Shown here piece by piece: positions 11,422-60,329 of a stretch of 64,000 bases of DNA. The translations under genes and the position numbers were made by a program. The DNA is from an uncultured Alphaproteobacteria bacterium (GTDB lineage Bacteria > Pseudomonadota > Alphaproteobacteria > Rs-D84): NCBI GenBank assembly GCA_947646585.1, contig CANSHD010000001.1, positions 377,210 to 441,209 on the forward strand, given 5' to 3'. The notes under the pieces were generated by a model. The model made no database searches and was not told where the DNA came from. It saw nothing but the letters and a program-made list of their open reading frames with translations. The number at the start of each line of letters is the position of its first letter. Position 1 is the stretch's first letter.

Positions 11422-11636
11422 GTCTAACCTCCTTTTTTCACGCATGAAAAAACCGCTGAATATATCAAGCGGTTGGAGGTTAGCGACTACTGTATAAATA
11501 GTGGTGGTATTCTTGTATATTCCCACGCCCTCCAACCCAGTGGCTGGAGATGCAAAACAATCGCACCGCGTTACGCCGCGCATGCATTTGCGTATACATC
11601 AGGTCGCTAAACCCCGTCATCGGAACCCCCGATGAC
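11422..11636 (-). promoter_or_regulatory. Structured leader RNA with attenuator (copy C of a three-copy family)
   Basis: TTGCAC-N17-TATCAT promoter, 5' CATCGG..CCGATG hairpin, TTAGCGAC/GTCGCTAA long-range helix, GGTTGGAGGG/CCTCCAACC pair, AACCGC..GCGGTTTTTT terminator. Confidence 0.75.
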
Positions 11637-11719
11637 AAAATTATGATATCAATATAAAATTTGCGGTGCAAGCAAAAGGTTGTTATAATGCCGCCGTTAC
11701 AAATATTAAAAGGTTTGTT

Positions 11720-46458: not shown

Positions 46459-46672
46459 TTGCACCTTAAAATCTTTATGCTATAATTCCAAATGCATCGG
46501 GTGACACCCGGTGTGGGGCTTAACAACCTCTCAAAGTTTTTCAACTCCACAGCCGGTTGGAGGGTTGCGAATATATTGAATAAGCAACGCTATATACTTT
46601 GATAGTTGTTAACCTCCAACCGCCCATTCGTCACGGGCGGTGTTTTTAATTTTAAAAACCATGGAGGAAAAA
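46459..46672 (+). promoter_or_regulatory. Promoter plus structured leader RNA/attenuator (copy A)
   Basis: TTGCAC-N16-TATAAT then GCATCGGGTgacACCCGGTG, TTAACAAC(46520)/GTTGTTAA(46605), GGTTGGAGGG/CCTCCAACC, CCGCCC..GGGCGGTGTTTTT. Confidence 0.8.
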
Positions 46673-57257: not shown

Positions 57258-57291
57258 ATAAAATCCCCGCCGTTTGGCGGGATTTTTTATT
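57258..57291. terminator. Intrinsic terminator after proS
   Basis: AAAATCCCCGCCgtttGGCGGGATTTTTT. Confidence 0.8.
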
Positions 57292-57499
57292 TGCGTGATT
57301 TATAGGCCAACAACGAAAACGCCGCATTCATCAGACGACGCATCACGTCTTCGGGAAAGACATCTTTCCCAATTTCACAACGTTTGTATTGCTCCTTTGA
57401 CATACGCAGTAACGCCGCCGCCTCCGGCGTGGTTATGCGCAGAAACTTGCGCGCCAAACGCATTGCGTTGCCATAGTATTTTGCATCAACCAGAACCAT
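57287..57499 (-). CDS. Small HTH-like protein, paralog of 46673-46906
   Basis: 70 aa MVLVDAKYYGNAMRLARKFLRITTPEAAALLRMSKEQYKRCEIGKDVFPEDVMRRL...; shares leader RNA with 46673 gene. Confidence 0.7.
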   Translation of the reverse strand: MVLVDAKYYGNAMRLARKFLRITTPEAAALLRMSKEQYKRCEIGKDVFPEDVMRRLMNAAFSLLAYKSRK

Positions 57500-57713
57500 T
57501 TTTTCCTCCACTGTTTTTCAATTAAAAACACCGCCGTGATGAAGGGCGGTTGGAGGTTAGTAGCTATTTTATCAATAGTGCTGCTTATTTAGATATATCA
57601 CAGCCCTCCAACCGGTTGTGGAGTTTTTTTAGATAAAGAGGCTACTACACCTCACACCGGGTATCACCCGATGCATTATGAATTATATCAGAAAAGTCGG
57701 GGTTTGCAAATGT
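57500..57713 (-). promoter_or_regulatory. Promoter plus structured leader RNA/attenuator (copy B)
   Basis: Minus strand TTGCAA-N16-TATAAT-N7-GCATCGGGTGATACCCGGTG, TAGTAGC/GCTACTA, GGTTGGAGGG/CCTCCAACC, ACCGCC..GGCGGTGTTTTT. Confidence 0.8.
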
Positions 57714-57715
57714 TT

Positions 57716-57797
57716 ACTGGATTGCAGCGCTTCGTTCGCAATGACAGTGAGCCTAGAACGATTGTCATTGCGAGCCCGCAGGGCGTGGCAATCCAGT
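57716..57797. repeat. Palindromic interspersed repeat (ACTGGATTGC...GCAATCCAGT)
   Basis: 82 bp with terminal 10-bp perfect inverted repeats and inner TCGCAATGACA/TGTCATTGCGA. Confidence 0.85.
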
Positions 57798-57822
57798 TAA
57801 TAATGCCATTTGCCGCGTCTGC

Positions 57823-59651: not shown

Positions 59652-60329
59652 TCACAGGCTGCTGTAATAACAGGGGCTTTTGTAAGTATAGCTGCCGGTT
59701 GTGTCGGAACCGGATGTCACATAGCATTGCTGAACTCTTTGGGCCCCGGCGGCCGAATTCCCAAAAGACGGACATCTGGTGCAGGTGCTGCTGGCGCTTA
59801 CCGCCAGGCCATAGTATCCCGCCGCGCATCTGTATTCCTTTCCGCTGTCTTTGCATGTGCCGCAGTCACATGTACGCGTTGTGCGCTGTTGCAGGCCGAT
59901 TTTTCCGGATACGCTGGTCCATGCGCTGTCGGTGCAGTTGCTGCACGCCCTGCAGCATGTTTTATATGTATATGAAAACAGTGCCTGACAGGCACTGCCT
60001 GTCCCCGTCTTTTCCGTCAGGGTATATCCGCTGGGGCACGACGTACAGGATGTCATTTTAATACATAACGTCACCGGGGTGCCGCCACTGTCCGGGTCCA
60101 GTGTCGCACCACAGTTGGAACAGTAATCGGTATAATATACATACCCCGTCGCTGCGCAGTTCGTTCCGCGTGTAACATTTTGCAGATTGGAGCTGCAGGA
60201 TGATACAACGGTGCATGTATGCGTCTCAACCGGTTGATAACCGCCGCCCGGCTTCAGCGTCAGCGCGCCTGCCGCAAATGTGCCGCCAATCAAAATGGCG
60301 ACCGCCCAAAGTCCCGTTTTCATATTCAT
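59652..60329 (-). CDS. Secreted cysteine-rich protein (paralog of 10957-11421)
   Basis: Signal peptide MNMKTGLWAVAILIGGTFAAGA; about 20 Cys; C-term CAAGYYG...CTRCPSFGNSAAG..QQCYVTSGSDTTGSYTYKSPCYYSSL. Confidence 0.75.
   Translation of the reverse strand: MNMKTGLWAVAILIGGTFAAGALTLKPGGGYQPVETHTCTVVSSCSSNLQNVTRGTNCAATGYVYYTDYCSNCGATLDPDSGGTPVTLCIKMTSCTSCPSGYTLTEKTGTGSACQALFSYTYKTCCRACSNCTDSAWTSVSGKIGLQQRTTRTCDCGTCKDSGKEYRCAAGYYGLAVSASSTCTRCPSFGNSAAGAQRVQQCYVTSGSDTTGSYTYKSPCYYSSL

Follow-up and report, generated by a model that had tools for sequence, protein, structure and literature searches.

The window, the whole 64,000-nt stretch of DNA analysed here, comes from the 968-kb genome (2 contigs) of an uncultured gut alphaproteobacterium, and on its minus strand a predicted promoter and a structured leader RNA lie in front of a gene for a small protein (copy B; Table 1). 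The original prediction had called this gene HTH-like, in agreement with a match to Pfam HTH_31 slightly below the cut-off (E 2e-5). All the strings that it quoted were located on the minus strand, including TTGCAA-N16-TATAAT-N7-GCATCGGGTGATACCCGGTG; the spacing from promoter to hairpin equals that of copy A at 46,494, GAGGT-G-TAGTAGC is complementary to GCTACTAACCTC, and the inner hairpin is GCTG..CAGC. A leader was thus present as proposed, but the element proved larger, comprising a 5' hairpin, an a1 hairpin, b1, hairpin B, a core and a terminator. The 5' hairpin differs in composition in sibling copies and still forms a hairpin. A dispersed repeat (GTCATTGCGAG...GCAATCCAGTAA) lies immediately 5' of copy B, at 57,710-57,800, and the same repeat precedes several of its siblings (L002, L003, L004 and L006). 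Copy B and the sibling at C2:88137 are followed by genes for an identical 70-aa HTH protein, and repeat, leader and gene may therefore be co-duplicated.

Table 1. Features of the copy B leader and the other leader copies, in window coordinates.
Feature	Position	Strand	Remark
Element copy B, promoter and structured leader	57,524-57,709	minus	
Predicted sigma70-like promoter TTGCAA-N16-TATAAT, copy B	57682..57709	minus	from sequence; spacing matches copy A
5' hairpin GCATCGGGTGATACCCGGTG, copy B	57655..57674	minus	predicted RNA start
A' hairpin GAGG-n8-CCTC, copy B	57638..57653	minus	position equals a1 of P1 C4
Target a1 (TAGTAGC), in A' hairpin loop, copy B	57641-57647	minus	
Target b1 (TTTATC), copy B	57632..57637	minus	
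Hairpin B (CTCCA..TGGAG), copy B	57606..57623	minus	competitor for 5' strand of closing stem
C4-like core, copy B	57548..57613	minus	covariation; covariance models R1 and R2
Closing stem GGTTGGAGG:CCTCCAACC, copy B	within 57548..57613	minus	part of C4-like core
Hairpin C, copy B core	57580-57604	minus	
Hairpin D, copy B core	57564-57578	minus	
Antisense b', loop of hairpin D, copy B	57568-57573	minus	
Antisense a', junction, copy B	57558-57564	minus	
Intrinsic terminator ACCGCC..GGCGGT-GTTTTT, copy B	57524..57550	minus	3 nt in common with closing stem
Shine-Dalgarno TGGAGG of the HTH gene behind copy B	57505-57510	minus	
Small HTH protein gene, 70 aa, behind copy B	57287..57499	minus	
Copy A leader	46494..46647	plus	5' of 77-aa HTH gene, CDS from 46673
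Copy C, expanded leader	about 11443..11645	minus	5' of exported Cys-rich protein gene, CDS from 11421 (minus)

The window holds three copies of the element: A, B and the expanded copy C. A DNA search of the genome returned ten similar stretches, seven of them full-length (78-100% identity, copy B included) and three partial. Since MAFFT put the 5' arms of expanded copies in the wrong place when the first 11 copies were aligned, covariance modelling was restricted to the core. The core model R1 gave 52 matches in the genome, 49 in sense orientation, and the Rfam sRNA-Xcc1 model added six copies with a longer hairpin C.

We then examined covariation across 48 copies. The results showed that the core helices (the closing stem and hairpins C and D) were paired in 98.7% of cells and that both sides had changed in 13 of the 18 core pairs, a count equalled in none of 500 shuffles; sliding the partners against each other abolished the pairing. 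The element is thus a structured leader RNA with compensatory stems rather than a mere repeat, as first proposed. A second covarying layer was found in the complementarity of a1, in the loop of the A' hairpin, to a', in the junction before the closing stem, and of b1, in the segment after the a1 hairpin, to b', in the loop of hairpin D. Two a1b1:a'b' helices could be drawn in 48 of 49 copies (33 distinct a' and 45 distinct b'); most swapped partners also yield two helices, so the evidence lies in the strength of pairing and not in its presence. The mean energy was -16.9 kcal/mol for own partners versus -10.5 for swapped ones in this genome, and -16.1 versus -9.8 in 57 copies from other genomes, with none of 5000 permutations as low in either set. 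General orthogonality of the guides was dropped as a claim, because, by the two-helix score, many pairings of one copy with another arise by chance. Judged from sequence, the "covarying stems" of the original prediction are two antisense/target pairs, a1:a' and b1:b'.

That prediction had also placed a binding pocket in a conserved loop. The loop is indeed conserved, but its usual form, found in most copies, is GAATATATTGAATAA, and copy B carries the variant GATATATCTAAATAA. The pocket itself found no support: covariation is strongest in the a'/b' guides and the a1/b1 sites that they target, as also in phage C4 RNA, and the loop forms the apex of hairpin C and is retained also in phage sRNA-Xcc1-type RNAs, where a short additional hairpin interrupts it (GAATA-[CAACACCCnnnnGGG]-GAATAA). 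The element would be a metabolite riboswitch if this loop bound a ligand and the terminator served as the expression platform, and a conserved loop, exclusive stems, a terminator and many targets would all suit such a design; transcription-terminating riboswitches and attenuators likewise have exclusive stems and an intrinsic terminator just 5' of the gene. Unlike in riboswitches, however, the alternative stem here involves antisense guides that are nearly copy-specific, with no common ligand site indicated. Because phage antisense RNAs before antirepressor genes have the same loop and core, the guides differ in almost every copy, and no Rfam riboswitch matched in the window or the sibling loci, we consider that this is probably not a metabolite riboswitch, a reading to which we give very little credence. 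At the gathering cut-off, Rfam found only tRNAs across the window; weak matches such as Leu_leader, BSnc120 and rnk_pseudo lay off the element and below the cut-off, and were rejected.

Permissive Rfam scans gave full-length, sub-threshold matches to sRNA-Xcc1 (RF02221) at the elements. Against a gathering cut-off of 53 bits, siblings scored 26-36 bits and the long-hairpin copies of this genome up to 48 bits; most copies, copy B among them, fall under the cut-off, and copy B itself gave no RF02221 match up to E 10. Full-length matches occurred in 27 of 59 genomes of relatives (one above the cut-off) and in none of 14 controls, and, at the level of the phylum, in 59 of 399 genomes, 40 of them above it. 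Conversely, model R2, built solely from the copies of this genome, found phage-type sRNA-Xcc1 loci at identical coordinates. The two models detect each other's members, so that homology to sRNA-Xcc1 was tested in both directions, and the core is homologous to RF02221 in its closing stem, two inner hairpins and conserved AAUA/GAAUAA. The above-cut-off loci carry the same a1 hairpin and b1 5' of the Rfam model and, collectively, another a/b-like site downstream; their adjoining genes include Bro-N, KilA-N, P22_AR_N, Phage_pRha and SymE. The copies described here share with sRNA-Xcc1 the core, GAAUA/GAAUAA, the upstream a1 hairpin and b1, the junction a' and the loop b'. They differ from it in a usually shorter hairpin C, in the missing a2b2 at the ribosome-binding site, in a terminator overlapping the closing stem, in their many copies per genome, and in their association with surface-protein and HTH genes instead of antirepressor genes or SymE.

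Two loci form bridges between the phage-type RNAs and the leaders. An IMG/VR viral contig (L196) carries the GAATATATTGAATAA loop and a member of the same subfamily 5' of a Rha antirepressor gene, with a canonical a2b2 (TTAAGAA...ATATAAG) immediately before the Rha start codon, and in a genome of the same genus (L018) an sRNA-Xcc1 that exceeds the cut-off comes with an a2b2-like site 5' of Phage_pRha. At another locus, before a P22_AR_N gene, sRNA-Xcc1 is accompanied by a sub-threshold c4-2 RNA (RF02944, 34.8 bits; L082:2890-2958), and both RNA types may possibly reside in one prophage. Elsewhere a CRISPR array with CRISPR-DR4 repeats (L088:24-1193) lies directly 5' of sRNA-Xcc1.

C4 RNA is an antisense immunity switch in phages. 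The leaders share with the C4 of phages P1 and P7 (RF01695) the order 5' hairpin, a1, b1, hairpin and C4 body, with a1 and b1 upstream of the body and complementary to a' and b' within it; the P1 record is annotated in the order a1, b1, c4, a2, b2, icd. In both, the second hairpin holds b' in its loop and the junction holds a', and the P1 C4 sequence folds alike. Expanded copies, for example in the upstream region of G000 C2:197742, carry a second terminator-like hairpin and T run in the interval between b1 and the core, and a terminator-like hairpin likewise sits between b1 and c4 in P1. Unlike P1/P7 C4, the leaders lack a2b2 and have a terminator after the core. The C4 clan model gave no match at the gathering cut-off in the window and none in sibling loci, and R2 did not match P1 C4, so the link to P1 C4 rests on layout, with no covariance-model match either way; in Rfam, C4 belongs to clan CL00128 and sRNA-Xcc1 to no clan. 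The core starts with GGW in 43 of 49 copies, and C4 is reported to carry this motif where RNase P cuts it (PMC5320573). C4-derived sRNAs also form a family in Acinetobacter baumannii, in which the a' guides vary and processing apparently takes place at GGW (PMC5320573). Its Group 1 RNAs likewise stem from phages, have multiplied in the genome of a bacterium and differ in their guides (PMC5320573), but are described as C4-family sRNAs, whereas the elements here are terminator-bearing leaders of the sRNA-Xcc1 type with a recurring gene set. Taken together, the identity of the element as C4-type, of the sRNA-Xcc1 kind, is well supported. In the part of the literature covered, we came across no description of C4 or sRNA-Xcc1 RNAs that serve surface-protein genes as leaders with a terminator.

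We next compared target sites and terminators. Downstream a2b2 pairing in this genome was not above that of swapped partners (850 of 5000 permutations); the corresponding value for 21 phage-type loci was 1 of 5000. A whole-genome search with copy B's a1-N0..28-b1 returned nothing beyond the site of copy B itself and, as reverse complement, this copy's a'b', and the search with copy A's a1b1 gave one extra match, likely due to chance. In 44 of 49 copies the core is immediately followed by a terminator hairpin and its T run (shuffled downstream DNA: 3.3 on average, maximum 8), and in 41 of 49 this terminator overlaps the closing stem by exactly 3 nt; four or five of the 49 copies are without one. 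A terminator was also present in 54 of 57 copies from other genomes, and one of any kind at 1 of 22 phage-type loci.

These terminators could also end small RNAs. Each copy might be mainly an sRNA gene, yielding a 150-200-nt RNA that acts in trans, with the downstream genes incidental. Six tandem sets have no recognised gene between the copies, each tandem copy carries its own predicted promoter, and several sets have a common guide specificity, all of which would fit this; so would the known relatives, since Xanthomonas sRNA-Xcc1, located 5' of symE (PMC12444791; PMC2996969), is an abundant 88-nt sRNA (PMC2996969) and the Acinetobacter C4-like RNAs are sRNAs (PMC5320573). However, the genome offers no second site for copy B and a single, probably fortuitous one for copy A, and most copies precede an ORF with a Shine-Dalgarno sequence at a near-constant distance, the start codons mostly lying about 45-50 nt past the core. 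We therefore regard an sRNA gene as rather unlikely. The tandem sets are L058 (G000 C2:186-888), L071 (C2:54904/55130), L060 (C2:77379/77607), L063 (C2:97737/97973), L072 (C1:482226/482486) and L008 (C1:544813/545078); in several pairs the guides of the upstream copy fit a1b1 of the downstream copy, which could mean neighbour-to-neighbour regulation.

To compare the closing-stem state with the terminator state, we used pseudoknot-free equilibrium folding. The 5' arm of the terminator overlaps the closing stem by 3 nt, so both cannot form completely. Forcing the closing stem left zero a1b1:a'b' pairs, and forcing the terminator permitted about 18; the terminated fold had the lower energy in 38 of 38 copies. 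For the competing hairpin B, the longest helix measured 7.3 with own, 6.0 with swapped and 5.0 with shuffled partners. When a1b1 was masked in copies A and B, the closing stem replaced the terminator in the predicted fold. The same mask flipped the fold in 12 of 44 copies, chiefly compact copies before HTH genes (random mask, 2 of 44), and the flip was dropped as a property general to all copies. By sequence and folding, the leader thus has an intrinsic terminator exclusive with an alternative stem, as an attenuator does, and two mutually exclusive predicted states are well supported.

The same region could instead act on translation: the closing stem's 3' strand (CCUCC...) would serve as an anti-Shine-Dalgarno, and the hairpin resembling a terminator would be secondary. 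Among 17 TCAGG copies, 13 have a CAGGAG Shine-Dalgarno, and among 14 TTGG copies none has, a hint of association whose Fisher p of 2e-5 is inflated because paralogues inherit Shine-Dalgarno and closing-stem classes together. The terminator, however, separates the closing strand from the Shine-Dalgarno, and translational control seems improbable.

We consider it reasonably probable that in this leader a C4-type antisense module of the sRNA-Xcc1 kind has been domesticated and attenuates transcription in cis. The direction of switching and its trigger are modelled as follows. By default, a1b1 would pair with a'b' of the same transcript, hairpin B would capture the 5' strand of the closing stem, and the terminator would form and keep the gene off. 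If a1b1 were occupied or held apart, as might happen when a different transcript releases a C4 fragment of identical specificity, the C4 core would close, weakening the terminator and allowing read-through into the gene, with the C4 fold as antiterminator. Lacking a phage target site and bearing a terminator, the leader appears to be a common "dimmer" for genes of surface proteins and small regulators.

The genes behind the copies encode small HTH proteins and many proteins with a predicted signal-peptide-like start, often Cys-rich; a few of the products are probably outer-membrane proteins. Of the proteins with a signal-peptide-like start, those tested gave no Pfam or NCBIfam match. The gene at 59,652-60,329 (minus) codes for 225 aa; its product is Cys-rich, also starts like a signal peptide and resembles these proteins in style, and no leader copy was detected in front of the gene. 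More speculatively, the leaders might form a specificity-coded RNA network, in which each has its own a/b "address" and processed C4 fragments activate or repress nascent leaders; we hold this to be a long shot. On that network reading, tandem copies with a common address would point to locus-specific rather than gene-specific action, a suggestion we make just as hesitantly.

Of 202 genomes from the order, 174 gave an R2 match at E 1e-6 or better, and almost all of these belong to the same family as the window; most genomes of its genus carry 2-47 copies. Exact-pattern matches in a named collection were metagenome-assembled genomes. Almost all bear the label Alphaproteobacteria or uncultured proteobacterium, and many derive from the rumen or gut; they include Candidatus Enterousia and one labelled Rickettsiales. 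The analysis joins three things treated separately so far: phage C4 RNA, the poorly understood sRNA-Xcc1 family and the very abundant leaders of small gut Alphaproteobacteria. It suggests that the sRNA-Xcc1 family should be remodelled to include the upstream a1b1. If the attenuator reading is right, a phage immunity RNA would have become a genome-wide attenuator through loss of its target site and a 3-nt terminator overlap, and there would be a testable handle on the control of dozens of exported Cys-rich proteins in uncultured bacteria. If the network reading were also true, a 1-Mb genome would vary its surface proteins singly using RNA alone.
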